NCBI GenBank assembly: GCA_029964075.1
Contig: CM057149.1
Coordinates: 31,200,197-31,264,196 of the forward strand
Direction of reading: 5' to 3'
Length of the DNA stretch: 64,000 nt
Source: Patiria pectinifera
Taxonomy: Eukaryota > Echinodermata > Asteroidea > Valvatida > Asterinidae
How positions within the stretch are numbered: the first letter of the stretch is position 1; each line of letters opens with the position of its first letter. The position numbers and the translations under genes were made by a program. This document shows positions 1,274 to 60,722 of this stretch, in pieces. The notes beneath the pieces are model-generated. The model searched no databases, was not told the origin of the DNA, and worked only from the letters and a program-made list of their open reading frames with translations.

Positions 1274-1605
1274 TCTATGGAATAGCCGCTTGCAGACAAG
1301 CGTCTATTATATTCGCGCAGATTCGGCGATTATGCAAAACAAGACTGCGTCTTGACATCAAGATTCTGGCCGTTCAGCTGCCGCCTTGTATCGGGTCTTT
1401 CGTAACCCGTTGTTGTATTACAAAAACTTGGCAGCCAAATTGACCAATCAACAGCATTGTTCACATTTCTGATCGAAATGGCGTCACACTTTCTAAAGTC
1501 GACTCCGATTGGCTTGAATGCGGGGTCGCATAAAATGTGCATGCTAGGATGTATCAGACGTTAAGTGTTGCTTTGCACACGTGAAATTCAATGTCTGATC
1601 CTCCG
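1274..1605 (+). repeat. Dispersed repeat R, copy 1 (about 330 bp)
   Basis: This sequence recurs at 25362-25687 (+) and, split in two, at 10660-10396 plus 6365-6300 (-). Shared landmarks are the start TATGGAATAGCCGCTTGC, a block near GACTCCGATTGGCT, and GGGGTCGCATAA followed by a cluster of TCAGAC motifs. No reading frame or clear terminal inverted repeat is visible. This copy is the best guide to the uninterrupted form. It is probably a non-autonomous element of unknown class. Confidence 0.7.
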
Positions 1606-3868: not shown

Positions 3869-4371
3869 CAGGGTGAGTAAAAAAAACACCGAAATGTTGG
3901 GACTATTGTTTCAGTGAAGTTCTGCATGTCACACTTTCAAAATCAAGGATATGAAAGCCCAATTCATAAACCTTGTTGTAGTACAAGAATCATTCAAATC
4001 ACTCACGTACTTTTCAAGTTACGGAATTTCAAACACAACCACCGTTTTAAGGTTCTGTCCACGGATCACAAAAAAAGTTCAGTGTTCTTTCAGCAAAACG
4101 AAAACATATCACAAAGGGATGTGTGTGAATTGTTTTCGTTTTGCTGAAAGAACGCACGCCTTTTTGGTGATCCGTGGACAGAACTTCAAAACGGTGGTTG
4201 TGTTTAAAATTCCGTAACTTAAAAATTACATGAGTGATTTGAATGATTCCTGTACTAACAAAAAGCTTATGAATTTGGCTTTTATATCGTAGATTTTGAA
4301 AGTGCTACATGCAGAACTTCACTAAAAAAATGGTCCCGACATTTGGGTTTCGGTTTTTTTTACTAACCCTG
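3869..4371. mobile_element. Palindromic foldback MITE with TA target duplication
   Basis: The element is an almost complete 503 bp hairpin. It starts CAGGGTGAGTAAAA and ends with the reverse complement, TTTTACTAACCCTG, and the two halves pair throughout around a centre near 4115. It is bounded by TA at 3867-3868 and 4372-4373. The TA duplication and CAGGG termini suit a Tc1/mariner-like non-autonomous element. A one-arm relative lies at 52718-52871. Small open frames inside are by-products of the palindrome. Confidence 0.85.
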
Positions 4372-4373
4372 TA

Positions 4374-5985
4374 GTGTCCTCTTTAAACGTATCTGACTTA
4401 CTGACTGACTCGCTGACTAACTGCCTCCCCTGATCCGGGCAGTGCTATTGTATAGGATTTCACTTTAACACCAATGAATGGGCTAAATCCGGCCCCCAGT
4501 GAATAGCCATTTTGAATCAATTGAATAGAGTACTTACTCCAATTCATATACAAGCTCTCAACAAGCACATATACAGAGCAATGCTTTTGAAGTCACGGTA
4601 GTGTGAAGAGCAAAATTAAAAATAAAAACAAATTAAATTAAACATTTGAAATTTATTCAAATAAATATTTTTTTTGTCGCGATTGAATTTCACGATCCTC
4701 CGAAAGGATAATATTTTGAGTGCGATAAACTTATAAAGATGCAAGTTACAACAATAATCCGCAACTCAATAGTTTCTGCCGAAGTAAGTTACAAACTTTC
4801 CCTTTTCTGTTTATACCAACTTAAATGCTGGCGATGATCGGCACGAATGTAGAAGTTCACGAGGCGAATTTAAATTTGTATTTTTGGGGGGTCGTATTAG
4901 CATATCTTCGATACACCACATAAAATTGTTTTTATTGATTTATTATGTGTACCCTGGGGCATTCTACACGGCCCGGGAACTCGAACCCATTCAACGATCG
5001 TATTTTACAACATATGTGTTGAGCAACCACTCGTGTCAATCCTCGAGCAACGCTGTTTATTGCTCTCTTGTGGTCCTTGAATTGCCATAACTTTTGAGTT
5101 TCAAAGATTTTGCTTTAAGATAAAAAATCATCGACCGCAACACACGTGGTTGAAAGATAATACGCTTGATGTTGAACTTGAAAATAATTTGAAATAATGG
5201 ACTTTGTAGGAAAAGGTAGACGGCACTTCAAGACTGGAAGATTTCAAGGTCAATCTTCGGTGGTTCATTTATAAACTTGCGAATTCCACCAATTGTAATT
5301 TGTAAAGTTTCTTCTTTCGAATTGCTTTTGATATTAGCCTACATGTATCCTGATACATGTATTAAATACTGCAAATGAGCGAAACGTATACGTATCTGAG
5401 AAAAAGTTGGACTAAGGCAAGTGGTGCACCAGAAATAGGGCGATATGACTCAAATTCACCATATGAAATTTAACAATAAGTGCCAGCCGAAAGATGTCAC
5501 TGAATTCACGTCATTATTGATGACACACAATGTCCATATATGGTCTGATACAAACTCATTATCACCTATAACTTATAAAAGATGAAGACACTAAAATATT
5601 CCATTGAGGTAATCTCGGTATCGAAATAGATACATCGATTACGGACTTGCGTGCGCGTGACGTCATCAACATTTTGCTATACTGCAGCCACTTGACACTT
5701 TATCGTGACCCGCAGAGATTGTACCAAATCATAATATCACAAAGGAACACTTCAAGGGATATGTTGCTATTTAATCTGTACACGTACGGCAAGCCCAAAC
5801 TTGATATTTCATATCAAGTGGTTTCACCTGACCCAGAAAGCGTATCAGGGAGTCGCGTTGTGAACAAGATATGACTTGATGTTCAAAGTTTATTTATCTT
5901 GAGCGTCTTTTTATGTCTAGCTATATATACGTTCTAATTTAACTGAAAGGTACTTTTTACGATTTTAAAGTAACTCTCTAAATAT
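4374..5985. other. Intergenic, nothing recognised
   Basis: AT-rich sequence with no supported gene. A short frame at 4884-5090 has no domain similarity that I can see and no splice context. Confidence 0.45.
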
Positions 5986-6221
5986 CCGGGTCAGATTGAC
6001 CTCGGAATCCGGGTTATATTTGGCTCGACCCTTTTCCCGGTCACAAATGACATTTTTCCGGGTCACAACTGACACTTTCCGGGTCATATATGACACTTTT
6101 CCGGGTCACAAACACTTTTCCGGGTCAAAATATCTCGGAAAAGTGTCATTTCGACCCGCTAAGTTTTATTTTTACCCGGAAAAGGGTTGAGCCAAAATGG
6201 ATTCTGGGTCAATTTGACTCG
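5986..6221. repeat. Imperfect inverted repeat with CCGGGTCA units
   Basis: The left end (CCGGGTCAGATTGACCTCGG) pairs with the right end (GGGTCAATTTGACTCGGAC). Between them the motif TTTTCCGGGTCACA recurs about every 20-25 bp in direct orientation (roughly 6045-6128) and then once inverted. It looks like a small foldback element that expanded its subterminal repeat. No target duplication was identified. Confidence 0.6.
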
Positions 6222-6299
6222 GACGTTTTTAGAGCGTAACATTCGTCCGGAGATCGCCAAATTTTAGTGGAAGTTTTTGTTGTCTTAAATAGCCGTGTA

Positions 6300-6365
6300 A
6301 AGGTTCGTCTGAGGATCAGACATTCACGTGTATGGAACCACACAAACAAATATGTCTGATACTGT
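6300..6365 (-). repeat. Dispersed repeat R, distal fragment of an interrupted copy
   Basis: Read on the minus strand, this begins GTATCAGACATA and contains ACACGTGAATGTCTGATCC, matching the end of repeat R at about 1549-1600. It continues the minus-strand R copy at 10660-10396, so the 6366-10395 element has been inserted into R. Confidence 0.65.
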
Positions 6366-6500
6366 TAGTCAAGTTCACTATGTCCAGATATTGAACTTCG
6401 TTAACTTTTTTGGGGGATTTGCAAACCTATACATTTTTGGAATCTGTGTGGTACAGGCAATCAGAAAACCAATGTTTACAATTTGCCGGAAGCATGCATG

Positions 6501-6988
6501 GCGGCCATCTTGGATTTTCAAAATGGCCGCCTTCAAAATGGGTGTTTCTCAATATCTCAGCATCCAGGTGGCCTAGAGTCATGATTTTAACGGCTAAACA
6601 TACATTTTCAGGGGTGAGGAAGCCAGTAGTACAAGGTAAAATAAGCTAAACATAACCACAAAGCGGCCATCTTGGATTTTCAAAATGGCCGCCTTCAAAA
6701 TGGGTGTTTCTCAATATCTCAGCATCCAGGTTTCCTAGAGTCATGCTTTTAACGGCTAAACATACATTTTCAGGGGTGAGGAAGCCAGTGGTACAAAGCA
6801 AAATAAGCTAAACATAACCACCAAGCGGCCATCTTGGATTTTCAAAATGGCTGCCTCGAAAATTGGTGTTTCTCAATATCTCAGCATCCAGGTTTCCTAG
6901 AGTAATGATTTTAAAAGCTAAACATACATTTTCAGGGGTGAGGAAGCCAGTGGTATAAAGTAAACTCAGCTAAACATAACCAGAAAGC
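6501..6988 (+). repeat. Three 162 bp tandem units, left arm
   Basis: Units begin with GCGGCCATCTTGGATTTT at 6501, 6663 and 6825, exactly 162 bp apart. Each contains a short internal inverted pair (GCGGCCAT ... ATGGCCGC) and a conserved block ending in AAACATAACCA. The mirror array in the right arm ends its units at 9946, 10108 and 10270. Subterminal tandem repeats inside inverted arms are typical of foldback elements, where they often bind transposase; that role is inferred here. Confidence 0.85.
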
Positions 6989-7159
6989 AGATTTTCATGT
7001 TCATTCCATTATAATACATTTTTTAAATGGCTCAAAACTTCTACATGTAGCAAGTCAAACCTCCAGCATGTCTAGGCAGCTTCTTGGACAACTTAAATAT
7101 CATGATAGCATGACAAAATAAGTGTGGTATAACAAAATCTTTGTTATATAGCAGAATCT

Positions 7160-8178
7160 TTACACATCATCATCATCACTGTCACTGGTCGGCAACATGT
7201 CATTCCTAGAGTCCTCATCATTCTGGCACTGGGTGCTGCACTGGCAGAGGTCTGTGCATGATAAGTTCTTGGACCTGCAAGAGCATCGAGATGTTGAACA
7301 GTCTGCTCTGCACTGGCATCTCACCATCTCAATGATGGCCTTGGGGGCTGGGAGGACCTTAGTTGTGATTGGCTTCACCTGATCAGCTGCTGTGTCCTTG
7401 TAGAAGCCATGCTGCAGCGGATCCAGGAACTGCTGCTGAGCAATGCTTGCCTGGCCCCATACTGTGGCCTGGATCTGGACTCGGTGGATGTGCTGCTTGA
7501 GAGCACCAAGGGGGAGGCAGCTCGTCACTTTCAGCCATATGCTTGCAGAAAAGATGCCATCGCAGCTCAGGGATGCTCGCAATCTGGATACCCTTTGGCG
7601 CGTATGCAGCACAGACGAATGTAGCCAGCGTTGACAGCAGCTCTTCAGTGACTTCAGTGGCATCTGAAAGCATCTGCAGAGCATTGATGACTACTACGCC
7701 TGCTTTGAGGTAGACTTTCAGCCAGGTTGCCTTTCCTATGCGAGAGAACCTCCCAGTGTTGTCTGCCCCCGTGAATGCGTGGAAGGCTGGCAAAGCCTTT
7801 GCTCTTTCTGGACCTCGATCTGTCCATATTGGCTGCACTTGGACCACTCCGGAAGCCATTGACATGGACGTGTTTCTCAGCAGAAGGTCATAATGTGCTA
7901 CGACCAGCACCAGAGCATCAGTGTCTGGGGAGAAGACCACCAACTCTGCATCAGGTGGGTTCCTCTGTGATGCCAGAACTGCATGATAGATTAGCAGCGT
8001 GTCCGCCTCTTCGTGATTGTTGTCCTCGATTAGCAGCTCGCTTTTGCTCCTAGTACGTCCTGCGGCAGATGCGATAACCAGCTTTGACGAGTCTTGGTTG
8101 TACTCCAGGGTTTTTGCTGCCAGATACTCAGTCAGATCAGCCTTCGTTTTGTCGTGGGAAAGGAACCGGCTGACACAT
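7160..8178 (-). pseudogene. Decayed element ORF, left-arm copy (PIN/FEN1-like nuclease remnant with CXC tail)
   Basis: Minus-strand frames from the inner tip to the stop at 7160 encode, in order, SRFLSHDKTKADL, HEEADTLLIYHAV, VVFSPDTDALVLVV, PAFHAFTGADNTGRFS, a helical stretch of about 110 residues, a cysteine-rich block (VRCQCRADCSTSRCSC and TDLCQCSTQC) and an acidic end (DSDDDDV). The order of acidic motifs resembles the C-terminal half of FEN1/XPG-type PIN nucleases; I infer this from motif spacing. The cysteine block resembles CXC/CRC DNA-binding repeats. A 2 bp deletion near 7515, relative to the right arm, shifts the frame between the two main pieces (7383-7943 and 7160-7684). The same kind of ORF is known to me as a repetitive hypothetical protein family in cnidarians and deuterostomes. 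Confidence 0.65.
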
Positions 8179-8599
8179 GTCTCTCACAAGAGACTGTGAT
8201 GAGATCATTCCAGTGTGAGAGAGACTGATGTGAGAGACATCAGTCTGGTATTGAAGCATTCACTGAGGTCTTTGACTGTCACTACCGTGGCTGGTTTCTT
8301 TGCTAGCTTCTGCACGACCACCATACCGTCCACCAGTGCAATTTTTCGACTTCGATGAGGATCTTCAGTGGGTGTGCAGTCTATTGTTTCTGGATCCACT
8401 GCATCGCGCTGCAGAACACTTGCATCGTGCAGCTGCTGCTGCTGATCTTCATTGGGTGGTTCTGCTGTTCCGAACTTCTCAAGGAGGTGGATCATTGGGA
8501 TGTGCTTGATGCTGGTGTTATCTCTGATCTGATATTGGATCGGATCCTTCCCTTGTCTCCGTTTCTCCCTTGTGGTACTCTTCAGGGAATCAGCCTTGT
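8179..8599 (-). pseudogene. Loop segment of the foldback with rearranged ORF blocks
   Basis: On the minus strand one open frame (about 8600-8205) reads first DTYKADSLKSTTREKRRQGK...SIKHIPM (block B), then a Q- and D-rich stretch followed by IALVDGMVVVQKLAKKP...ECFNTRLMSLTS (block A). In the ORF family as I know it, A precedes B and B runs straight into SRFLSHDKTKADL. Here B is first and A is joined to the left arm through about 75 bp of GAGAGACAT-like filler (8179-8255). The loop is therefore a mosaic and not a simple spacer. It supplies the N-terminal acidic motif (VDG) that the arms lack. The block order is read from sequence; the ancestral order is from memory of the family. Confidence 0.55.
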
Positions 8600-8604
8600 A
8601 TGTG

Positions 8605-9618
8605 TCAGCCGGTTCCTTTCCCACGACAAAACGAAGGCTGATCTGACTGAGTATCTGGCAGCAAAAACCCTGGAGTACAACCAAGACTCGTCAAAGCTGG
8701 TTATCGCATCTGCCGCAGGACGTACTTGGAGCAATAGCGAGCTGCTAATCGAGGACAACAATCACGAAGAGGCGGACACGCTGCTAATCTATCATGCAGT
8801 GCTGGCATCACAGAGGAACCCACCTGATGCAGAGTTGGTGGTCTTCTCCCCAGACACTGATGTTCTGGTGCTGGTCGTAGCACATTATGACCTTCTGCTG
8901 AGAAACACGTCCATGTCAGTGGCTTCCGGAGTGGTCCAAGTGCAGCCAATATGGACAGATCTAGGTCCAGAAAGAGCAAAGCCTTTGCCAGCCTTCCACG
9001 CATTCAGGGCAGACAACACTGGGAGGTTCTCTCGCATAGGAAAGGCAACCTGGCTGAAAGTCTACCTCAAAGCAGGCGGAGTAGTCATCAATGCTCTGCA
9101 GATGCTTTCAGATGCCGCTGAAGTCACTGAAGAGCTGCTGTCAACGCTGGCTACATTCGTCTGTGCTGCATACGCGCCAAAGGGCATCCAGATTGCGAGC
9201 ATCCCTGAGCTGCAATGGCATCTTTTCTGCAAGCATTATGGCTGAAAGTGACAAGCTGCCTCCCACCCTTGGTGCTCTCAAGCAGCACATCCACCGAGTC
9301 CAGATCCAGGCCACAGTATGGGGCCAGGCAAGCATTGCTCAGCAGCAGTTCCTGGATCCGCTGCAGCATGGCTTCTACAAGGACACAGCAGCTGATCAGG
9401 TGAAGCCAATCACAACTAAGGTCCTCCCAGCCCCCAAGGCCATCATTGAGATGGTGAGATGCCAGTGCAGAGCAGACTGTTCAACATCTCGATGCTCTTG
9501 CAGGTCCAAGAACTTATCATGCACAGACCTCTGCCAGTGCAGCACCCAGTGCCAGAATGATGAGGACTCTAGGAATGACATGTTGCCGACCAGTGACAGT
9601 GATGATGATGATGTGTAA
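8605..9618 (+). pseudogene. Decayed element ORF, right-arm copy (PIN/FEN1-like nuclease remnant with CXC tail)
   Basis: This is the plus-strand mirror of the left-arm ORF. The frame 8605-9245 covers SRFLSHDKTKADL, NNHEEADTLLIYHA, FSPDTDVLVLVVA and AFRADNTGRFS. It then breaks at a 1 bp insertion near 9236 (CATTATGGC against CATATGGC in the left arm) and resumes in another frame from MAESDKLPP through the CXC-like block to the stop at 9616-9618. A 3 bp loss changes the G-A-D motif seen in the left arm to R-A-D. Each arm is intact where the other is broken, so the frame damage arose after the arms separated. It is probably not functional as it stands. Confidence 0.65.
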
Positions 9619-9781
9619 ATGATATAACAAAGATTTTGTTATACCACACTTATTTTGTCATGCTATCATGATATTTAAGTTGTCCAAGAAGCTGCCTAGA
9701 CATGCTGGAGGTTTGACTTGCTACATGTAGACGTTTTGAGCCATTTAAAAAATGTATTATAATGGAATGAACATGAAAATC

Positions 9782-10270
9782 TGCTTTGCGATTATGTTTA
9801 GCTGAGTTTACTTTATACCACTGGCTTCCTCACCCCTGAAAATGTATGTTTAGCCGTTAAAAGCATTACTCTAGGAAACCTGGATGCTGAGATATTGAGA
9901 AACACCAATTTTCGAGGCAGCCATTTTGAAAATCCAAGATGGCCGCTTGGTGGTTATGTTTAGCTTATTTTACTTTGTACCACTGGCTTCCTTACCCCTG
10001 AAAATGTATGTTTAGCCGTTAAAATCATGACTCTGGGCCACCTTGATGCTGAGATATTGAGAAACACCCATTTTGAAGGCGGCCATTTTGAAAATCCAAG
10101 ATGGCCGCTTTGTGGTTATGTTTAGCTTATTTTGCTTTGTACCACTGGCTTCCTCACCCCTGAAAATGTATGTTTAGCCGTTAAAATCATGACTCTAGGC
10201 CACCTGGATGCTGAGATATTGAGAAACACCCATTTTGAAGGCGGCCATTTTGAAAATCCAAGATGGCCGC
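9782..10270 (-). repeat. Three 162 bp tandem units, right arm
   Basis: Mirror copy of the left-arm array. On the minus strand units begin GCGGCCATCTTGGATTTT at 10270, 10108 and 9946. The third unit in each arm is the most diverged (CTGCCTCGAAAATTGG in place of CCGCCTTCAAAATGGG), and it is diverged the same way in both arms. The triplication therefore predates formation of the inverted repeat. Confidence 0.85.
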
Positions 10271-10395
10271 CATGCATGCTTCCGGCAAATTGTAAACATT
10301 GGTTTTCTGATTACCTGTACCACGAAGATTCCAAAAATGTATAGGTTTGCAAATCCCCCAAAAAAGTTAACGAAATTACACAGTGAACTTGACTA

Positions 10396-10660
10396 TGTAT
10401 GCGAACCCCACGCGCCAGCCAATCGGAGTCGACTTTAGAAACTGTGACGGCATTCCGATCAGAAATGTGGACTAACTAACTGTTGATTGGTCAATTTAGC
10501 TGTCATGTTTTTTTTTGTAAAAAAAACAGCGGGTTACGGAAAACTCGATAGAAGGCGCCCGCTGAATGGTCAGAATCTGAATGTCAAGACGCAGTCTTGT
10601 AAAATCGCCGAAATCTGCGCGAATATCATAGACGCCTGTGCAAGCGGCTATTCCATTATA
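10396..10660 (-). repeat. Dispersed repeat R, proximal part of the interrupted copy
   Basis: Read on the minus strand from 10660: TATGGAATAGCCGCTTGC, then GACTCCGATTGGCTGGC and GGGGTTCGCATA, which stops exactly at the edge of the foldback. The rest of R resumes at 6365. With intact copies at 1274 and 25362 this gives filled and empty versions of the insertion site. No unambiguous target duplication is visible because R copies vary at this point. Confidence 0.75.
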
Positions 10661-21600: not shown

Positions 21601-24600
21601 GTTTACATCGGGCGAGGTTTGCAGGAATAATGCATAGGCCTAATCCACGCTCAAAGACACAGCACCTTTGTATCCCAATTAGTTTAATTTTAATACTCGT
21701 GTTACCAGTTTAAAGGTTGTTTATCGGTACCGGTTTGGGTTTTATGGTATTGTGCATTTCCATATTCATAAGCAAAACTGTGATTTATTCAATGTAGAAA
21801 CTGCTGTGTTATTTACAGCCTCTTCAGCACCAAAAGTTGCCAGAATTGTAGACATTTTGCTGTGGTATTTTCTGGTGTGTGTTTGTTGTTGTTTTTTTGT
21901 GGTGATGCACTGTTTCAGTCATTACAGTTATTCAATGAGCAAACTTCATGCACAATTGTTCCAAATGAGTTGCACATTTTGGGTTCACAAGTGAAACAGA
22001 AAACCCAAAATGAAATAGTGGGTGCGTTCGTTTAGCTCAGCCGGGTCGACACGGGTCAGCCCCGTACCGTTCGATTAGCTCTACATGACGTCATTCTCGG
22101 GGCTCACCATCCGGCCACCGCAGACCCTGCTCGTGGAGCAGAGTCACTGGTGGAAGTACGTCAAGCATGCGCTGTTCATTCCATAGAAACGGGCAAATAT
22201 GGCGGCCGGACAGCGGAAATCTCAAGTTGACTTAAAGTTGAATTTTTAAAGGTTATCATGTATTGAGTTCATTGCGACTTTCGAGGCTATACATAATAAA
22301 TTCAACCCAACTTTTTTGAGTTTTGGAATTGACTAAAAAGCAGTAAATCTCAAACTAAGACCCAATCCGAAACGGGCGTTTTGTCGGTGGCTACGGCCAC
22401 TGCTAAGGGCATCACGTGAGGATCGTGATGGCCCGCGGTTGAACTTTCGATTTAGCCCGGCTGTCGTGGCTGACCCGTCTGCGTTACTCGAACACGCCCG
22501 GGGTATGCCTTGAATAACGTCACAGCAACAGCGCCCTCCGTGAAATTCCTCTTGGATTGCTTGAACTTCGGTTTAAATAAACAAATAATAAAATATAATC
22601 AACAAAACCGGCCCCTTAAAAAAAAAACTACCTTATATAATTTCACTAGGTCCATTTTCCACGTCACTGAGGGACAAGTTTGGAGCAGCCTGTGTGGTCA
22701 CTGTGTGCGGGGCTTTGATAGCGGCGGCCGTTATCACTGGTTCGTTCGTGCAGACTGCACTCCAAGAGGGAATGGTTTATATGCTATTAGCAGGTAAGAT
22801 CCGAATCAAGTTAATTAGATGGTTAGACGATGAACGTAACTGTGGGACGCAATTCGGTTTTATGGTAAAATCTGTATTTACCCAAATTTAACCAAACTTA
22901 CTATAATAGCGCCCTCCTAGTGTGCTCGCCACATCTCAAGAAGGATCGGTAATTAATGAACTTTTCTGGCTTTCAGTTCGTCTTTCACTGTTTTAAAAAC
23001 AGCATTCATAGTCAGTCCGTATAAATTTTGAGGTGATATTCTGCAAGATGCAAATTAAGAGGGGCGCGGTTCGGTATCACAGGGCCGGAGGGAGCACTTT
23101 TTGACCTTAAATCTCTGTCAAGCCCCCAGAATATTGTGCAAGATTTTCAAGCTGACGATGTCTTAGGCTGAATCGCATTAAGTGTGTTTTCTTTTTCGTG
23201 TGGTTTTAAAGGAGCGGGTTATGGTGTATCCAACGTTCTGACCAAGGATGCTGTTGGCCGTCTGTTTGATAAGAATTACGCGACGGCTGTCGGCGTGGCC
23301 CGGACCGGCTACTCGGCGGCCCTCTTCGTGTTTGCACCGCTCGTCCAGTTATTCCTCGGTACGTACGGCTGGAGAGGGACCATGCTACTGTTGGGTGGCA
23401 TCACCATGCATCTGGTGGCCTGTGGCGCCCTCTTGCGAATTGCTGACACACCAACCCATCGTGAGGGGTATCAAACGCTTATCTCCTCACCAAAAACTCC
23501 CTCGGAACGCAACAACATTTTGAAGTCGTGTGGAAGGTTTCTCAAAAGCATCGTGGTGAACTTGAACTTGGGTTTGTTGAGCAAGTTCAGTTACTGGTCG
23601 GTGTCTGTCATTTATGTCATCTCCAAGTACGCCATCGACTCCTGGGTGATCTATTTTGTGTCACTGTCGCAGTCGTGTGGGCTGTCGCTGGAGGAAGCCG
23701 CGACGATTGTGACGGTCGCTGGGGTCGGTAATCTGCTAGCCAAAGTCGGACAAGGGATCGTGACAGACAGAGGCATCCTCCCTTATTGGGTGTTGCTAGC
23801 CGTAGCCACTGCCGTTAGCGCAGCTGCATTCTGCGCCACTCCCTGGTTGGCCACGTATTGGACGTTGATGGCGTCTGCCTTGCTCATTCTCATCGCAGAC
23901 GGTGTTGTTAGCTGTCTGAGTGACGTATTGACCAAGCAAGTTCTAGGCGTGGAGTTGCTGGCTAGCGCTTACGGGTGGATCGGGATCCAAAACACGATCT
24001 GCAGATTCACTCTTGGTTTTATTCCTGGTGAGTGACTTGAACCCGAAAATAATTGAGATATTAGGCCAAAAAAAAGTCTCCGGTTTCTGGTATGGAGCTT
24101 GCCCAAAAAGTAGTGCGGCGACGCGGCTTTTTTTTTTTTTACCTGATTTTTTTGCTTCAAATGTCGGCTGATGACTGCAAATGGTGCCCGACTAAACTTA
24201 GTGCAAATATATGGGAGTCCAGAGAGGCCACATAAAGCTTATTCTCGACCATAACCCAATCTAAAAACACGATAAAAGTGTGCAGCAGCAGGATTCCAGT
24301 CAAACCAGTGAGTTTGGCGGTTTTGAGACATCATCTTTCATTGAAAAAAAAAAACTTTTTCATTTTGCCGACGCGCATGGCTACGGCGACGCGCGCGCAT
24401 ATCAGAAACCGGAGACTTTTTTTTGGCCTTATAGGCCTAAAAGTCGTTTACATTGTGTGTCGGTGTGATTTTATTCGAGATGGGGTTCGAACCTCAAACC
24501 TTGATCTTACCTGCCCCAAATTATCCATTTGGGGGCAATTTACGTCTCGGGTTGTGTTGATAAGAGTTGTATCTGCTGTGAAAAGTTGTAGCTGTTTTTA

Positions 24601-32498: not shown

Positions 32499-35400
32499 AT
32501 GGTGTCCAGTTCAGTTGTTCTCACTGCTGGAGCAATCACTGCAATTTGCTACGTCGTCTATCTGATTGTGGGTTTACTACAAGGCATACGCAAGCAACGA
32601 GCGGCCTTGAAACAATGGCCAGGACTGCCAACACACTGGCTGTATGGCAACATTCACCAGGTAGCAATAAACAGCATTCATGAATACCCGAGACAGTTTA
32701 CCCATTCCTATCGATCGAGAGCCGTGGGTGGTTTTAAAGCCAGAGTCCATCATTTGCCTCTATCCAAAAAGTAACTGTCGTAACTATTGTTGAAAAACAT
32801 ACTTGGTTGAAAGATAGTAAGGGGACTAAACTCCCTGTAGAATCATTCTTTCTGGCTACCTGTCATTTTGAAGAAATCAACGAAAGAAGGCATTTCCAAC
32901 GGTGCGTCTTAAGAAGCACCGTTGGAAATTTCTGTTAGTAGTTCGTTTTTTTATTCGGCGAAGCGCGAGCAAGCGTTGGCACGACGCACACGTGCGCATG
33001 GATGCTATAATCCGTCGGATCGTTGCGCGACATCGCGTAGCTGCAATCGGCTCAGTGAGAACGTGTCTCGGACACTGAATTCAGGCCCAACTCAAAACAT
33101 GATTCATGAAATCAAGATCTTTAATTGCTGTTTTACTCGAAATGTACAGCTGAAGCTGAGCTGAAACTTCATCAGATCAGTTGTTCAGCACCCTTTTTTA
33201 GATTTTGAGCACTTTTGTTGCTTCAAACGAACAAAATGCACAAATTACAAATGATGGACTATACCTTTAAACAGGGAATAAATGTATGCTTGGAGGTATT
33301 AAATACTATGTTTAAGACTGGTTGGAGTCTGGAATGCTGATAATTATCGGAGCCAAAGGCGACGGTAATTATCAGCATCCAGACTAATACTGACCAAGCA
33401 CATATTTGTTCCCATTCATAAATACTTTTTCAGTCCAAAAGTCAAAACAAGTCATAATTAAAAATTTCTAACGATTTTGTTCATCAATTTTACTTCATGT
33501 TTTTCGAAACACCCCTCTAGCTTTATAATGGAGTGTCCAGCTCGCGAGTAAGATGTAAACAACGCCTTCAATGGAGATTGGCGTGCGTCGCGCATACTGC
33601 GCGATGTTGCGCAGATGCAGCTGTGGCGATCGAGTGCGTTGTGAATTTAGGACTGTGAAATACTGACCCACTGGTAGTATTTTGCATGTCTACGTGAGGA
33701 TTGTGAACGTTCAACCAATAAAACCCTAAAAGGCACTGGATTTCAAAGGAGTCAAAATTTCATGTGACAAGTGGACCAGCCAGCCATGTCTTTATCATCC
33801 GTTTAAAACCGGCCACGTGACAGGAATGATCAATGGGAATGGGTCTTAGGTATTTATGAATGGTTGATAAAACACCGGTTGGCTGGTTTTAAACACTTTT
33901 TCAGTGTCACATGAAATTTGGACTCCAATGAAATCTGATCCCTTTTACCCTTTTATTGGTTGAACATTCACAATCTTCACTTAGGCATGCGCGATTCTAC
34001 TAAAAGAGTCTATATTTCATAGAGTCCTAAATTCACACTACACCGGCACAGCTGCATTCTGCGCCACATCGCGCAGTATGCCACATCTCACAGTATGCCA
34101 CATCTCATGCAAGAAGATTTTTAGTACTAGCAAGAGGCGCATATATAAGCTAGAGGGGTGTTTAAAAAAACATGAAGAAAATTGTTGAACAAAGTTGTTG
34201 GAAATATAAATGTTTTACTTGTTGTGACTTTTTGACCCCCTGAAAGGTATTTATGAGTGAGAAAAAATATCTGCTTGGCCGGTTTTGACTAGTACGTTTA
34301 AAACCGGCTCAGGGGCCTGGACGCGGTAAACGATATACCTTTCAGTCAAAAATGATAAATACCTTTCGGTCAAATAGTCAAAACCAGTCATAAATTCACA
34401 CATTTCCAATGGTTTTGTTCAGTCATTTTACATCATGTTTTGTGAAGCACAGCTCTGGCCATGTCTAATGTACATGTATGTGCCTCATGCGCGTAGTGCT
34501 AAAAATCGCATTGGCGCACGCGGCGCATACTGCGCGATGTGGTGCAGAATTCATTGACGTTTTACCGGTGGCTGAAAACCACCCACGTGACGGGATCCCG
34601 ACCCATAGGAATTGGTAAACTGTCTCAGATATTTATGAATTTCAAATTGAGCCATCAAATGTCAATACATCATGATAAGAGAAAATTTGCATCTTTTTGT
34701 GAGGTTCTGAAAATATCGGGGGGGAACGTCCTGATCTAACTTGAACAAGGAGCTCTTTTATTTTTTAACACAGGTAACAAATACTCAGAAGACTGTTAAA
34801 TATGTTGTACATTCTTTCTGAATTTAGCATCCAATGTTTGACGCCAAAGTGCGCAGTCAGGGTGGGGAGGAAGGCTTTCGATTTCATCGGGAGCTGACAG
34901 CCCGTTATCCTAGAGGCTTCTACTTCTTCCTGGGCCCCACACGCGGCGTCTTGACGGCCAACCATCCGGACATCATGAGACCAATTATGAAGAGTGGAGG
35001 TGAGACGAGAAATTAAAAAAAAACACCTTCATTGAATAAAGCAAAGAAAAAAAATCTGCGTTTCCGGTTAACCCACCAAACCTAAAAATTCAGGCAGAAC
35101 CTAACTCCTTTTATTGAAAAAATTAAATAAATAAATAGATGAAAAGTCATGGTGCTGCCCCCATGCAAAAAAAAAACATAACAAAATTTAAAATGAAATC
35201 CACAAAATCTCAGGGACAGCAATTTGTCCAAAATTCTGCCAATTTCTGGGGTGAAAGTAGCCGTGATACCAAAGCCTCTGCCAAAAATGAAATCACTAGT
35301 TTGCTCATGAATGTGGTACTTCACATTACCTGAAAAACCGAAGGTCGCAAAAATACCTTAAGAAATGGCAATATGAAAACCGTAACAAAAACCCAAACCA

Positions 35401-38400: not shown

Positions 38401-41400
38401 ATACAAAAATATCATTTTCTTAAAAATGACTTCACACCAGGTGCCATAATTTTACAGGATGCTTTAGACTGTCATTTACCAACATCCTAGTAAGGTATTT
38501 CGTAAAAACTTGGTAGTTATATTTTTCAATGTTTGCAAATGTTGTATATTCCCTTTAACAAATTGTTGACTGCTGTGATGTAGTGTTCTGCAAAGCGGAC
38601 GTGAAACTGACCCGACCTGAAACAGACGTCGGGTCGGGTCGGGTCGGGTCGGTTTGTCCATCATTTCAGTCTTTTCTAAATAGGGGTGTGCATCGGAACT
38701 GGGTGCCCGGGTGCCCGGGTACCCAACTGCTGATGTCAGGAAACGGAAACTTAACAAATTACTTAGTTACTTCTCAGACAATGAAAAAAGAAGGTTTTGA
38801 ATGTCACTTGTGGGTTTTTTGCAAATGAAAACCAGGCTAAATTGAAAATCAAAACAGATTTCATGTTTATGGCATTCTAACATGCGACAGATGACGGTCG
38901 CAAAAGTTGCAGATTACTTGGTAAAGCTATAAAAGCCCTTCAGACAACTTTCAGGATTTGAAAATTGGGGGGTTGGTTTCTTGTACGGGTACCCGGGTAC
39001 ATGTACCCATGTTTTACCTCAGTGGGGTACCCTTTTCCTGTGCTACCAGTAAATGCACACCACTACTACTCTCTAATTTACACAACCCCAAAACTGAGCG
39101 AAATGCGTAAGGCCAAAAAAAAAAGTCACCAGTTTCTGGTCCGTGCGCGCATCGCTGTAGCATGCGTATTGGCAGAATTAATTTTTTTTATATTTCAATG
39201 TAAGATGATGTCTCAAAACCGCCAAACTTACTGGTTTAACTGGAATCCTGCTGCTGCACAATTTTAACGTGTTTTTAGATGGGTTTACGATCAAGTATAA
39301 GCTTTATGTGGCCTCTCTGGACTCCTGTAATATTTGCACTAAGTTTAGTCGGGCATCATTTACAGTCATCAGCTGACATTTGAAGAAAAGAAAACAGGGA
39401 AAAAAAATGCGTCGCCGCACCACTGTCCAATGTAAGATGATGTCTCAAAACCACCAAACTCACTGGTTTAACTGGAATCCTGCTGCTGCACAATTTTAAC
39501 GTGTTTTTAGATGGGTTTACGATCGAGTATAAGCTTTATGTGGCCTCTCTGGGCTCCCATATATTTTGCACTAAATTTAGTCGGGCACCATTTGCGGACA
39601 GTGTTGTAATGTTGTAATTGTGCGTCTGGAAGCCATACTGAGGGAGCCATGGTCATGTATCTGGAACCTGTAAATGCTTTTTAATTAGCGCAATATGTAT
39701 AAAGGGAGCCAACTAATGACCAGCCTGGCAGCATATGTACAATGTCGATGTCGCTGTATAGTTAACGTTACCGTTTTCTCTGATTTGTTTCTTGACTATT
39801 CAAATTTCCTGAAGAATGTTCGTGTCGGTCGTGATTGTAAGTTGGTGCAGAATTCTCAAGCCTTTTGGCCTCAAGCTCCACCCTGAAGGATATTTTTGAG
39901 AAGTTTAAGGGGATCAAAGTGTCATCTGCAACATCAGCCGACATTTGTAGAAGAAAAAAGTAGGGGCAAGCTCCATACCAGACACGGAGACTTTTTGTTT
40001 TGGCCTAATGTGTCCAATATTTTTGAGGGGTTATTTGCACACTAGAGTCCATGAACAGTGTGGTACTCAACGCTGTTACCAACAATAGCATACAGTATAC
40101 CAACGCTGCCCTCAATTGAGGTAAAGTGTCAAGCCCAAGAACACACGTGTTTAGTAAGTCTGATGCCAAGCAAATGTTCTTGGAGATGGCGTCATGAGTT
40201 TTAAAATCAAACTCCTCGACCATTCATCCACAACACCTCGGGGTTAATTTGCTCCTAGTTTCTTTGCAGAATTTAATACTCCATGACACGGACGTTTTCA
40301 GTGTTTCTTAGAAATTCTTACAAGTGTCCCTGATCTGGTTTATAACTGAAGGAAAAGGGCCAAGCTGCCCAGGCTGACGGTTCTTCCAGACGTAAGTACC
40401 TAGACTTCCTGGACATCCTTCTCTCTGCTCGCGACGAAGACGGCAAGGGGCTGACGGATCTGGAGATTCGTAACGAGGTGGACACGTTTCTCTTCGAGGG
40501 CCACGACACCACGGCCAGCAGCCTGACCTGGATCCTGTACTTTCTAGCGCTGTATCCTGAGCATCAGGCAAGAGTCCAAGAAGAAATTGACGAAGTGCTC
40601 TCGTGCCGTGACTCGGACAACATTGGATGGTAAGCAGTGGGGTTTAGAGGTATGGTAGATCATTTTTGTCATTTGTGCATTTGTTTGTTTGAAGCAACAA
40701 AAGTGCTCGAAATGTAAAGACAGATGCTTAAAGTTATAGTCCATCATTTGTAATTTGTGCATTTTGTTCGTTTGAAGCAACAAAGTGCTCAAAATCTAAA
40801 GAAGGGTACTGAACAACTAACCTGATGAAGTTTCAGCTCAGCTTCAGCTGTATGTTCTGAGAAAAACAGCATTCTAGGATCTCAATTTCAAATCAAAAGT
40901 TGCTGAATCATGTTTTGAATTGCGCTTGAATTCAGCGTCCGAGAAACGTTCTCGCTGAGCCGAATGCAGCTACGCGATGTCGCGCACTGATCTGACGAAT
41001 TATAGCAACCGGGGGTGCGTGTGCGTCGTGCCAATGCTTGCGCGCGCTTCGCTGAATAACGAAACGAACTACTAATTTAAATTTTCCTACGGTGCGTCTT
41101 AAGAAGCACCGTTGGAAAGGCCTTCTTTTGTTGATTACTTCAAAATGACAGCTTGCCAGAAAGAATAATTTCACAGGGAGTTTAGTCCCCTTACTATCTT
41201 TCAATCAAGTATGTTTTTCAACAATAATTACGCCAGCTACTTTTCGGATAGCTGCAAATGATGGACTATAGCTTTAACAACTAACCTGATGAAATTTTAG
41301 CTCAGTGAATGTTGTATATTCCGGGAAAACTATTCTAGATAGGATCTCGGTTTCAATTCAAAAGTTGCCGATTCATGATTTCAATTGCGCCCGAAATCAG

Positions 41401-44006
41401 CATCCAGGACACATTCTCATTCAGCCGATTGCAGCTACGCGATGTCACGCACTGAACTGACAGGTAATAGCAACCGTGCACCCGTGTGCGTCCTGTCAAC
41501 GCTTGCGCGCACCCATTCATGGATTCGCTGAGTTACAAACCAACTACTAACAGAATTTTCCAAAAGTGAGTCACTTGACGCATCTTTGCTGGGAAATGGC
41601 CTTCTTTAATTGTATTTTAATTGTTTTTTAATTGATTTTTTTCAAAATGACAGCATGCCAGAAAGAATAATTTCACAGGGACTGTATTGCCATTACTAGG
41701 GAATATACAACGGAATATACAACATTTGCTTTTGCTGTAATTTCAGAAATGGATGGATTTGGGGGATAAGTATTTATAGGAAATATTGTTACACTGACTT
41801 GTTTGAAGTTTTTTATTCATAGATGCTGGAAAATCCGAGAAAAACAATCATGTTCTTGTAGTCTGGTTCCCTGACCCCACATAAGATGAAATTGTAAGGT
41901 CAGGGAACCAGTCTTGCTGGCTTGTACCCATTTCATAGGAGTGTAATCGATTGCACAAAAATGCGGACTATTGGGGCAGCATTTTAAAAAAATTGCTGTT
42001 GGCAAGTTTTAATTTTTTTTTTTTATTCTTAATGTAATTCTTTCAGGGATGATCTTGCTAAGTTCCCGTACCTTGTTCAGTGTTTGAAAGAGTCGTTGCG
42101 CATCTACCCGCCGGTGCCATTCATCCAGCGAGTTATTCAAAATGACGTGGAGATTGACGGCAAGGTTTTACCGGCTGGGACAACACTGGACGTGTCTGTG
42201 TACAATCTTCATCACAACCCGGAGATATGGCCCGATCACATGGTAAGAAACAAAGCGGTTTCCTTCACTTGGGAAAAAAAGAAAGAAAAAAAAAGAACAT
42301 TTTTGTCCTCATTGTGCAGTTTCATAAAATTGAAATTCATAAGTACGTATGTGTTTACCCATTTTCAGTTCACAGATTAATAAAGCCTAGGAACAAAGAC
42401 ATAGAAAAGCAATTGTTAATTGTTTAAGCAAGAAAGGCCTGACCAAAGAGTTCACAATCCACCTCCACCCTGTTGAAACAGCGCCCTCTTGGGACAGTCA
42501 GAAGAAAACTTGTACTGCACATTTTGATTTTTGGGTGTCAATTTTGAACTCATTATTACCTCCTCCAAGGAGGTTATACAGTTGAGTCTCGTTAATACAA
42601 ACTCGTTCGGACCTAGCCAAATTGTTTGTTATATCAGAATTTTGTATTAAGAGGAATATCAGCCCCACTCATTGTGCACATAAATGCACAGTCGGGACCA
42701 AGGCTTTATGTTTGTTATAACCAAAATTTGTATTAGCAGAGTTTGTACTAAGGAGAGTTGACTGTATTTTCATTGGCATGGGTTAGTATGTTGACAAGAT
42801 AAATCCAAAAGTTATAGACCGATTTGCATGAACATTTTTTTAGGGGTGGTCCTTGGTACAAGGACAAATCCATTAGATTTTGGAAGTGATCCGGATCTGT
42901 GTCTGGATCCAGGATTTTTTGTAAGGATTCTTCACCATTTATGCGAGTATTTCTTTTGGGTGTACTGACATTATGGCGGGGAATTGTTTAGCCTTTGCTT
43001 TCTAGTTTTTCAATTGTTTTCTTCTTACGTTACTCACAGGAATACATTCCAGATCGCTTCTCACCTGAAAATATCCAGAAGATAGACCCCTTCGCCTATC
43101 TTCCATTTGCAGCTGGACCTAGGTGAGCTTTATAAAGAACCCCTCAAAATTGAGAGTACATCTACTAGAACAAAAGTACTGGGTACGAGGCTTTCGAGTC
43201 ATAAATCACACTTTGAAGTGCTTGGGTGCAGAGTACTGCAATTGTACTTCCAAGAGCTTAGTTGAGGATGGAGCACAAGTGGTGCGAATACACAACATGC
43301 CAGGACGCTTATGGTGCTGTGGACATGGATGAGTATCAACGAAAACTACTCCTGAAAGCCTGCAAAAAGCCGTACTTTTAGGCCAAAAAAAATAAGTCTC
43401 CGGTTTTTGGTATGGAGCTTGTCCAAAAAGTGGTGCGGCGACGCGGCTTTTTTTTTTTTTTACCTGACTTTTTTGCTTCAAATGTCGGCTGATGACTGCA
43501 AATGGTGCCCGACTAAACTTAGTGCAAATATATGGGAGTCCAGAGAGGCCACAAAAAGCTTATTCTCGATCATAACCCCATCTAAAAACACGTTAAAATT
43601 GTGCAGTAGCAGGATTCCAGTCAAACCAGTGAGTTTGGCGGTTTTGAGACATCATCTTTCATTGAAAAAAAACCTTTTTCATTTTGCCGACGCGCATGGC
43701 TACGGCGACGCGCGCGCATACCAGAAACCGGAGACTTTTTTTTTTGGGCCTTATCCTGATTTTTTTCCCCAAACACCTGCTCTTGTCCTGTCCTGTTTGA
43801 AAATAAGACCGTTTCCCTCCTTTCCTCCCCCCAGAAACTGCATCGGGCAGAACTTTGCCATGAATGAAGAGAAGGTGCTCCTGGCCCGACTCCTGCGACG
43901 ATTCCACATCGAGCTGGACCCGGACCACCCTGTGGTCCTGTCCAATCACTTAATCCTCAAAGCCCACCATGACATCAAGATCAAGATCACCAAGAGGAAG
44001 CTCTGA
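32499..44006 (+). CDS. CYP4: Cytochrome P450, CYP4 class, 10 exons, 518 aa
   Basis: Exons are 32499-32660, 34828-34999, 35435-35619, 36224-36348, 37625-37684, 37853-37976, 40352-40629, 42047-42242, 43040-43122 and 43835-44006. All junctions are GT-AG and phases match to TGA at 44004. The start is the ATG giving [11 protein letters not shown], followed by an ER membrane anchor (residues ~4-28) and the proline hinge WPGLPTHW. Visible signatures are the CYP4 I-helix motif [16 protein letters not shown] (318-333), whose Glu325 is the residue that links covalently to haem in CYP4 enzymes; the K-helix ExxR (Glu384-Arg387); [10 protein letters not shown] after it; and the haem loop PFAAGPRNCIG with axial Cys464. 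CYP4 enzymes omega-hydroxylate fatty acids and eicosanoids with NADPH and P450 reductase; the substrate here is unknown. The acceptor of exon 7 is the least certain junction (poor pyrimidine tract; an alternative lies 6 bp downstream). Introns 1, 6, 7, 8 and 9 carry MITEs. Confidence 0.92.
32738..33266 (-). mobile_element. TTAA-flanked hairpin MITE S, copy in P450 intron 1
   Basis: Flanked by TTAA at 32734-32737 and 33267-33270. The ends are AGCCAGAGTCCATCATTTG and, inverted, CAAATGATGGACTATACCT. It matches 40732-41273 in opposite orientation, including a central hairpin (CAACGGTGCGTCTTAAGAAG, about 32898-32917, with its paired arm following). It starts 77 bp after the exon 1 donor. Confidence 0.75.
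33327..33384. repeat. Strong 58 bp stem-loop
   Basis: GTCTGGAATGCTGATAATTA pairs with TAATTATCAGCATCCAGAC around a loop of about 15 bp (GGAGCCAAAGGCGAC). It lies just left of the larger palindrome at 33395-34285. Confidence 0.75.
33395..34285. mobile_element. 890 bp imperfect palindrome in P450 intron 1
   Basis: Outer pairing is CCAAGCACATATTT with AAATATCTGCTTGG. Inner pairs include AAACACCCCTCTAGCTTTATA with TATAAGCTAGAGGGGTGTTT, and TGAATTTAGGACT with AGTCCTAAATTCA, around an axis near 33840. Arms of the same family recur at about 34345-34560. No reading frame or clear target duplication is visible. Confidence 0.72.
34345..34625 (+). repeat. One-arm relative of the 33.4-34.3 kb palindrome
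   Basis: Contains GATAAATACCTTTCGGTC, AGTCAAAACCAGTCATAAAT, TTTTGTTCAGTCATTTTACA and GCGCATACTGCGCGATGT in the order seen in the left arm of the palindrome. Confidence 0.65.
36040..36175 (+). repeat. Truncated MITE S relative (P450 intron 3)
   Basis: Begins at TTAAAGGCATATAGGATCAT and includes TGCATTTTGTTC and GAAATTTCAGCTCAGTG as in the full S copies. It ends shortly before exon 4. Confidence 0.5.
38029..38554 (+). mobile_element. TTAA-flanked MITE T, full copy in P450 intron 6
   Basis: The ends AGGGAATGTACACC and, inverted, TGTATATTCCCT lie between TTAA at 38025-38028 and 38555-38558. An internal stem is formed by GTCTGGTTCCCTGAC and the following GGTAAGGGAACAAGTC. Partial copies occur at 41695-41965 (+) and 57912-58176 (-). 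It starts 52 bp after the exon 6 donor. Because TTTAAA is palindromic, the exact boundary is uncertain by a base. Confidence 0.7.
38626..38652 (+). repeat. (GGGTC)n microsatellite
   Basis: About five tandem GGGTC units in intron 6 of the P450 gene, preceded by an inverted GACCCGACCTG motif. Confidence 0.8.
38681..39065. mobile_element. Possible hAT-like MITE in P450 intron 6
   Basis: TAGGGGTGTGCAT at the left pairs with ATGCACACCACTA at the right, and both ends have GGTACCCGGGT-like subterminal motifs. No exact 8 bp duplication is visible, so the boundaries and class are tentative. Confidence 0.5.
39111..40005 (-). mobile_element. PIF/Harbinger-type MITE, rearranged copy (P450 intron 6)
   Basis: Terminal GGCCAAAAAAAAAAGTCACC and, inverted, GGAGACTTTTTGTTTTGGCC lie between TAA at 39108-39110 and 40006-40008. 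The interior is duplicated: GATGATGTCTCAAAACC... occurs at about 39207 and again at about 39433. A ~335 bp foreign stretch (about 39602-39937) follows. It is an inverted, enlarged relative of 24064-24428. Confidence 0.8.
40732..41273 (+). mobile_element. TTAA-flanked hairpin MITE S, copy in P450 intron 7
   Basis: Flanked by TTAA at 40728-40731 and 41274-41277. The ends are AGTTATAGTCCATCATTTG and, inverted, CAAATGATGGACTATAGCT. The body matches the intron 1 copy in opposite orientation, including the central CGGTGCGTCTTAAGAAGCACCG hairpin region near 41092-41115. Confidence 0.78.
41278..41965 (+). repeat. Partial MITE S joined to partial MITE T
   Basis: From 41278 the sequence follows the S copy (AACCTGATGAAATTTTAGCTC, GATGTCACGCACTGAACTG, CAGAAAGAATAATTTCACAGGGA). 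It changes near 41695 to T (GGGAATATACAACATTTGC, TTACACTGACTTGTTTGAAG, GTCTGGTTCCCTGACC). It is a nested or abutting pair of broken elements. Confidence 0.6.
42579..42764. mobile_element. pogo/Tigger-like MITE, TA target duplication (P450 intron 8)
   Basis: The 186 bp element has ends CAGTTGAGTCTCGTTAATAC and, inverted, GTACTAAGGAGAGTTGACTG, between TA at 42577-42578 and 42765-42766. The CAGT-GA-TCTCGTTA terminus is characteristic of pogo-type elements. It is non-coding. Confidence 0.85.
43381..43750. mobile_element. PIF/Harbinger-type MITE, copy in P450 intron 9
   Basis: Nearly identical to 24064-24428. It is bounded by TTA at 43378-43380 and 43751-43753 and ends 84 bp before exon 10. One frame stays open through it into the last exon (43407-44006). 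Confidence 0.88.
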
Positions 44007-60210: not shown

Positions 60211-60722
60211 TCATGGTTAATGGCAGGTGAATAATAGAATACATTCTCAGTTTCAAAACAGGTTTTTTTGTTATAAATTCATAAGAACAATGTACCGTAA
60301 CAGGAATCGTGGACAGAAACTTCAAATTGATGTTAAAATATATGGTTAATGGCAGGTGAATAATAGAATACATTCTCAGTTTCAAAACAGGTTTTTTTGT
60401 TATAAATTCATAAGAACAATGTACCGTAACAGGAATCGTGGACAGAAACTTCAAATTGATGTTAAAATATATGGTTAATGGCAGGTGAATAATAGAATAC
60501 ATTCTCAGTTTCAAAACAGGTTTTTTTGTTATAAATTCATAAGAACAATGTACCGTAATGGACAGAAACTTCGAATTGATGTTAAAATATATGGTTAATG
60601 GCAGGTGAATAATAGAATACATTCTCAGTTTCAAAACAGGTTTTTTTTGTTATAAATTCATAAGAACAATGTACCGTAACAGGAATCGTGGACAGAAACT
60701 TCAAATTGATGTTAAAATATAT
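60211..60722 (+). repeat. Four-copy 129 bp tandem repeat
   Basis: Units start with GGTTAATGGCAGGTGAATAA at 60215, 60344, 60473 and 60593. The spacing is 129, 129 and 120 bp because the third unit lacks about 9 bp after ACCGTAA. The units are nearly identical, so the array is recent. It creates a repetitive 159-codon minus-strand frame that is not called as a gene. Confidence 0.9.

Follow-up and report, generated by a model that had tools for sequence, protein, structure and literature searches.

The classical foldback elements FB4, Tetris and Tm1 belong to superfamilies other than the one under which we place the element described here, a palindrome at positions 6366–10395 of a 64,000-nucleotide stretch of the Patiria pectinifera genome (assembly GCA_029964075.1, contig CM057149.1, positions 31,200,197 to 31,264,196 of the forward strand; hereafter the window). 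For FB4, repetitive inverted arms prone to rearrangement have been described, and template switching followed by transposition has been proposed (PMC8277862); the window element shares with the classical foldbacks its inverted, repetitive, rearrangement-prone arms, and differs from them in that its arms contain transposase gene sequence. The nearest precedent is Galileo, a Drosophila element of the P superfamily, whose terminal repeats grow via tandem repeats and recruited neighboring sequence, one recruitment having taken the final piece of the transposase open reading frame (ORF) (PMC4168063, PMC3573991). Similarly, the window element has long, internally repetitive terminal repeats that recruited a gene end, whereas Galileo encodes a transposase of another superfamily and has target site duplications (TSDs) of 7–8 bp (PMC4168063) against 3 bp here, so that the TSD length does not fit Galileo or the P superfamily; moreover, the present element consists almost entirely of a single palindrome whose center is rearranged. 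At DNA breaks, microhomology-primed foldback synthesis with templated insertions has been described, and in cells lacking the flap nuclease Rad27 templated insertions are more numerous, the complex ones often being inverted pairs (PMC11724301). Microhomology-primed snap-back and templated insertions would be common to those events and to ours, which differs in scale, as the break inversions covered there are mostly of 5–34 bp and the present one is of ~2.2 kb and mobile.

Our results suggest that the window element is probably a non-autonomous foldback from a DDE cut-and-paste transposon family of the AcademX type, born in break repair and moved in trans. The nuclease of AcademX elements is XPG-like. 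A published account gives AcademX TSDs of 3–4 bp (PMC10045372) and ties the TSD difference to the encoded nuclease. The family studied here has 3-bp TSDs and a putative DDE-type core together with a nuclease in its protein, and it fits AcademX by TSD length and protein layout, being matched to Academ by that published description only. An earlier note, made from the window's sequence alone, had considered that the element might represent a class not properly described; given the agreement with the AcademX account, we read it instead as a variant of a known transposon kind rather than as a new element class. The window copy differs from AcademX as described in that it is palindromic and its coding frames are broken, and its arms recruit ~1.3–1.7 kb in addition to the terminal repeat, which in ordinary copies measures 526 bp. 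Among the matches listed in our searches of the open-access literature, no foldback Academ element was found, and no open-access paper was found that joins Academ, XPG and transposase.

The two inverted arms of the window element (6366–8178 and 8600–10395) are 96.9% identical over 1816 aligned columns and enclose a 421-bp spacer, so that arms of ~1.8 kb form most of a total length of 4.0 kb. Within each arm lie three tandem 162-bp units with 90–96% mutual similarity, and the gene present in both arms reads outward, on the minus strand in the left and on the plus strand in the right (stops at 7160 and 9618), with its frames disrupted by frameshifts. The sequence TAGTCAAGTTCACT stands at both ends of the element, with TGT on either side. 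The arms, the triplicated units and the decayed outward ORF had been reported in the earlier note and were recovered in the arm alignment, the repeats and the frames; its description of the arms needs amendment in that the tips are asymmetric (5′-type and 3′-type) and in that the full arms of sister copies are ~2.2 kb long, the window copy having been shortened by 361 bp. The features are as follows.

1339–1600, minus strand: related empty site, a dispersed repeat copy matched across the insertion point by the element's two flanks
6363–6365: left TSD, TGT, with the identical 3 bp at 10396–10398
6366–6396, plus strand: 5′-type tip of the terminal inverted repeat (TIR), with A at arm position 15, a 10-bp block at 19–28 and C at 31
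6366–8178, minus strand: left inverted arm, in which the terminal repeat is followed by the 3′ end of the putative transposase gene, reading outward; 96.9% identical to 10395–8600
6501–6986: three 162-bp units of the left arm
7160–8171, minus strand: gene fragment of the left arm, predicted C-terminal half of the nuclease domain plus Cys-rich tail, frames broken, corresponding to amino acids 996–1217 of the protein P0002
8176–8177: site at which the left inner arm lacks 361 bp that L009 and L010 retain
8179–8228: hairpin tip, with the stem GTCTCTCACA, 28 nt of parental sequence and 12 nt of filler, then the fold-back (parts assigned by eye against L013 and L009)
8229–8606, minus strand: right inner arm, segments A and B, both of which ordinary copies carry at the same place in the opposite orientation
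8229–8494, within the right inner arm: segment A, holding the predicted N-terminal part of the nuclease domain
8481–8606, within the right inner arm: segment B
8600–10395, plus strand: right inverted arm, with 3′-type tip and outward gene fragment, stop at 9618
about 9783–10270: three 162-bp units of the right arm
10396–10398: right TSD, TGT

The genome (613.5 Mb in 1020 contigs) yielded at least 41 matches to the outermost 635 bp on the left side, a lower bound from 40 of 194 candidates scored, and 51 matches to the gene part of the arm plus the spacer, for which all 19 candidates were scored. Twelve loci, counted from the latter match table, reach 92% identity or more in their best-matching piece: four carry the window's foldback (the window, L009, L010 and L012), one carries a different foldback (L014), and the remaining seven comprise ordinary copies along with deleted and truncated ones (L011, L013, L015, L016, L017, L018 and L019). 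The window's palindrome thus recurs with the same rearranged center at three further loci on other contigs (the window lies on C21, L009 and L010 on C22, and L012 on C19, three contigs in all), and this sharing of structure and of center junctions excludes chance. The full-length sisters L009 (4392 bp) and L010 (4399 bp) are self-complementary end to end at 96–97%, with gaps, their arms of ~2.2 kb surrounding a 40-nt loop, and inner-arm DNA has been lost separately from the other two copies, 361 bp from the left arm in the window and 205 bp in L012. One arm each of L010 and L012 sits in a 442-codon open frame.

Whole foldback copies diverge by only 0.6–1.5%, and 13 differences between the arms inward of the tip (an 8-bp block counted once) are fixed in all four, which indicates that the palindrome formed once, aged somewhat and then spread. 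To judge from these sequences, a single founder palindrome later reached four or more sites. Each of the four copies is enclosed by a single pair of exact 3-bp TSDs of its own (TGT, CAT, GGA and TTA), which rules out two adjacent insertions. By its long inverted arms, its mobile copies with TSDs and its internally repetitive arms, it is a foldback element, and the earlier note's view of it as mobile is borne out by the four loci with their own TSDs and unrelated flanks. That note also allowed that the ORF might be found elsewhere without inverted arms, the palindrome then being a one-off rearrangement; ordinary copies of this kind do exist, but a one-off rearrangement is ruled out by the three further loci with the same palindrome and center. 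The whole 162-bp repeat region also aligns with the 3′ end of L013, an ordinary copy, and the repetitive arms were therefore inherited from ordinary copies. Another ordinary copy, L018, contains at 4012–6923 an insertion resembling a long interspersed nuclear element, with reverse-transcriptase motifs by eye.

Over the wider set of loci, exact 3-bp TSDs were found at 15 of 18 (the window and 17 fetched loci of the family and its relatives; the count draws on the 20 fetched loci L009–L028, with L019, L020 and L027 omitted as only one end was found). The three without an exact TSD are L011, where two of three bases match by eye, L025, which has an eroded tip, and L026, which has none. When 250 bp on either side were compared, no similarity was found between the flanks of different loci. 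The flanks of the window element align, across its insertion point, to the dispersed repeat at 1339–1600, which represents a related empty site; the left flank alone scored 51.3 against this repeat, with a maximum of 39.1 in 200 shuffles. Two additional elements of ~4.9 kb (L024 and L028), whose tips are related and whose TSDs are 3 bp long, retain parts of the same gene and form another non-autonomous group.

The tips connect the foldback to its parents. Its 5′-type states fit all six 5′ TIRs available (ordinary copies and L014), with some single-base variants within the 10-bp block, and its right tip has the 3′-type states seen in five of five 3′ TIRs; every foldback has one tip of each type, and the arms are thus asymmetric at the tip. 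Inward of position 31, no site separating 5′ from 3′ was found in the terminal repeats compared. Comparison of the foldback with its 7.2-kb relatives (TAGTCAAGTTC against TAGTCAGGTTC) gives one mismatch in the first 11 positions. The Repbase rule for non-autonomous membership (PMC4455052) asks for equal TSD length and termini with at most one mismatch over positions 1–11; with the same 3-bp TSD and one mismatch, the foldback belongs with the 7.2-kb family as a non-autonomous member.

What the 7.2-kb family encodes is best seen in L023, a relative with a 3-bp TSD and terminal repeats of ~350 bp, whose open frame of 1330 codons comprises a DDE-like core, then an XPG/FEN-like nuclease, then a Cys-rich tail. 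A frame upstream of the long one (P0003, read in L021) contains Cys/His motifs by eye. Within the window's own subfamily, L011 has an open frame of 998 codons; in L013, L017 and the remaining 7.2-kb relatives the long coding region has broken frames. Ordinary copies of the window subfamily encode portions of this protein and are 47–69% identical to P0002 in amino acids (57–69% in the main segments). The earlier note had seen a “non-DDE” element, with no recognizable transposase, that might have captured a nuclease-like gene. Neither view is supported: the nuclease-like region is continuous with the D...D...E core in L011 and L023, and the long coding region of ordinary copies and relatives ends, on its C-terminal side, with the nuclease part. 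The window's “nuclease-like ORF” is thus the 3′-terminal portion of the family's own putative transposase gene.

For the core, an alignment with distant genomic relatives, read by eye, placed acidic residues in three columns: DNxD in four of four covering sequences, a second D in eight of eight, and the E of “D...E(Q/H).N” in nine of nine. Many of its rows are partial, and an automatic count gave no column that was 90% conserved. This pattern suggests a DDE-like core in the long coding region. For the nuclease, the C-terminal acidic motifs occur in XPG/FEN order ((I/V)VDGM; V.D.Y...K..R..R; HEEADT; SPDTDV; TGCD...F.GKGK), and 15 columns are invariant in all 11 sequences. An hhalign comparison of a nuclease profile built from 12 sequences with an XPG-like host protein in L045, asteroid/FAM120-like by eye, scored 40.4 (P 4.8e-5, probability 68%), the best of 100 shuffles reaching 22.5; the alignment to FEN1 has the expected register in its second half. 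Pfam TCR matches the Cys-rich tail in two relatives (best 6.2e-6). The acidic motifs and the L045 comparison suggest a putative XPG/FEN-type nuclease in the family's protein, on mixed statistics. A similar uninterrupted frame of 1466 amino acids, open at the contig's 5′ end, was found in L043, a record filed as a planctomycete metagenome-assembled genome, and a related protein sequence in L044, a mussel-symbiont record labeled bacterial; both are probably eukaryotic contamination of bacterial records. No relative turned up in two scans of viral contigs.

Whether the core is of Academ origin deserves separate consideration. Pfam DUF6589, to which Pfam assigns no function, matches the core weakly: with E values up to 1 admitted, it was found in seven of 14 aligned members, the best at 3.6e-5 and still short of the curated cut-off, and P0002 itself gave no match. 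Stronger DUF6589 copies are abundant in the genome (82 matches, with 83 of 83 candidates scored) and look like a different lineage, to judge by eye from the one copy read, L046 (C10:11333800-11337300); that copy has PHD-like Cys-rich motifs by eye, and neither a nuclease nor a helicase was seen by eye in its 3.5 kb, on which no family search was made. Pfam found nothing relevant in four window proteins, P0002 and P0003, and a PDB profile search found no solved-structure match for the core. The core might come from a superfamily other than Academ, or from an unnamed one with an XPG-like nuclease; against this, the combination of 3-bp TSDs, nuclease and DDE core is the one described for AcademX (PMC10045372), and we regard a non-Academ core as rather unlikely.

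The center of the palindrome suggests how it formed. In ordinary copies three segments follow one another toward the 3′ end in the order A-B-C. Each half of the foldback, read from the outside inward, begins with an inverted C, to which B and then A are joined through 1 and 3 bp of shared sequence (by eye), and segment A is followed by 28 nt of parental sequence and 12 nt of filler, after which the sequence folds back on itself. The center junctions are present in four of four foldbacks and in none of the other 14 loci compared, from the family and its relatives; the same holds for the loop junction, with up to two substitutions allowed. The C′/B and B/A junctions stand in mirror image in both arms, and the rearrangement therefore preceded the copying into both arms. 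In the other foldback, L014, the parental junctions are preserved on both sides, and a complete tip is attached within a 5′ repeat; it is apparently a second, independent event whose last step was end joining.

From these features we infer both the repair steps and the mobilization in trans. A break in a parental copy would have been followed by aborted gap repair, during which the first palindrome would arise: synthesis would start in the 3′ terminal repeat and proceed inward through the gene end, switching templates at matches of 1–3 bp, until the nascent strand, at a short inverted match and with filler added, snapped back and served as its own template on the way outward. Annealing of the new end to the remaining 5′ terminal repeat would give one 5′-type and one 3′-type tip. 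With both tips intact, the palindrome could then be mobilized by transposase supplied in trans from the family, and full-length palindromes would later shed inner-arm DNA asymmetrically.

Ectopic recombination or end joining between two neighboring, oppositely oriented parental copies, with later loss of the middle, could replace the snap-back in this scheme. The genome does contain two copies, L015 and L016, that face in opposite directions ~9 kb from each other, and the 13 between-arm changes fixed in all four copies are what two slightly different contributors would leave. However, the mirror-image C′/B and B/A junctions indicate that rearrangement came first and copying second, and among the sequences compared some changes are private to the 5′-type arm and some to the 3′-type arm, as from mutation after formation. 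Recombination or end joining between two copies is thus an unlikely origin.

Several points weigh against a foldback of an AcademX-type family that arose in break repair and moved in trans. Among the fetched loci, none was an intact autonomous member of the window's own subfamily, and the open 1330-codon frame sits outside that subfamily, in the more distant relative L023. Movement in trans is something that we infer only; snap-back accounts for the center, yet other paths exist, and the separate inversion of segments A and B requires at least two template switches. On the protein side, the L045 host protein itself lies below the Pfam cut-offs (XPG_I_2, E 2.9e-4; XPG_I, E 0.0031), hhalign to FEN1 alone scored 17.5, below the best of 60 shuffles (23.4), Pfam XPG_I was found in only one of 11 members (E 0.079), and PDB profile searches of the nuclease region returned nothing relevant. 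The Cys-rich tails of the window and of L013 had no significant Pfam TCR match. AlphaFold models were of very low confidence, with a mean pLDDT of 34.0 for the L043 core and 35.9 for its nuclease.

Two further explanations fare much worse than break repair within a DDE family. The window element itself shows only nuclease-like and tail coding sequence, as would a distinct class that lacks a DDE transposase and relies on its own nuclease to move, but its TSD length and tips are common to elements with the DDE-like core, the tips differing from those of the 7.2-kb relatives at one of the first 11 positions, which makes such a class very improbable. Long palindromes do misassemble readily, but three further loci with the same center, fixed arm differences, their own TSDs and differing secondary deletions leave an assembly artefact almost no room.

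Elsewhere in the window, a degenerate 22-bp tandem repeat lies to the left of the element (6032–6131), and a small foldback with 197-nt arms, 86% complementary and 85 nt apart, occupies 3879–4357. Inverted arms of ~480 bp at 32734–33215 and 40782–41277, in pieces, 83–89% complementary and ~7.6 kb apart, are a candidate for another long terminal-repeat element. Related units of ~80–140 nt occur in inverted orientation at 24133–24354, 39185–39566 and 43454–43672, and a 129-bp unit in four tandem copies at 60213–60723. A LIM-domain exon, prickle-like by eye (47951–49255, minus strand), and a transporter-like exon, also by eye (23184–24035, plus strand), probably belong to host genes.

The birth of a foldback can be read in this one genome, which holds ordinary copies, a founder center with template switches, and full-length as well as shortened daughters. 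With two apparently independent palindromes among 12 close loci, foldback formation might even be a recurrent product of the family's transposition chemistry, in which a DDE core would act alongside a flap/hairpin-type nuclease, and the mobile hairpins, if transcribed, sources of double-stranded RNA acting against the parent, a proposal that we hold to be unlikely. The absence of an intact close parent among the fetched loci is compatible with silencing, which it does not demonstrate. In maize, Mu killer consists of a transposon gene duplicated in inverted orientation, from which hairpin RNA could be produced. Like it, the window foldback mirrors its own family's gene and is a putative source of hairpin RNA; it differs in being mobile and in having several copies. 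The family also offers a concrete test case for whether transposons with their own flap-type nuclease form palindromes more often than others. If the reading is true, ~1 kb of the parent gene held in mirror image would make the foldback a mobile source of double-stranded RNA, akin to a mobile Mu killer and, as far as its sequence suggests, a candidate mobile self-silencing hairpin.

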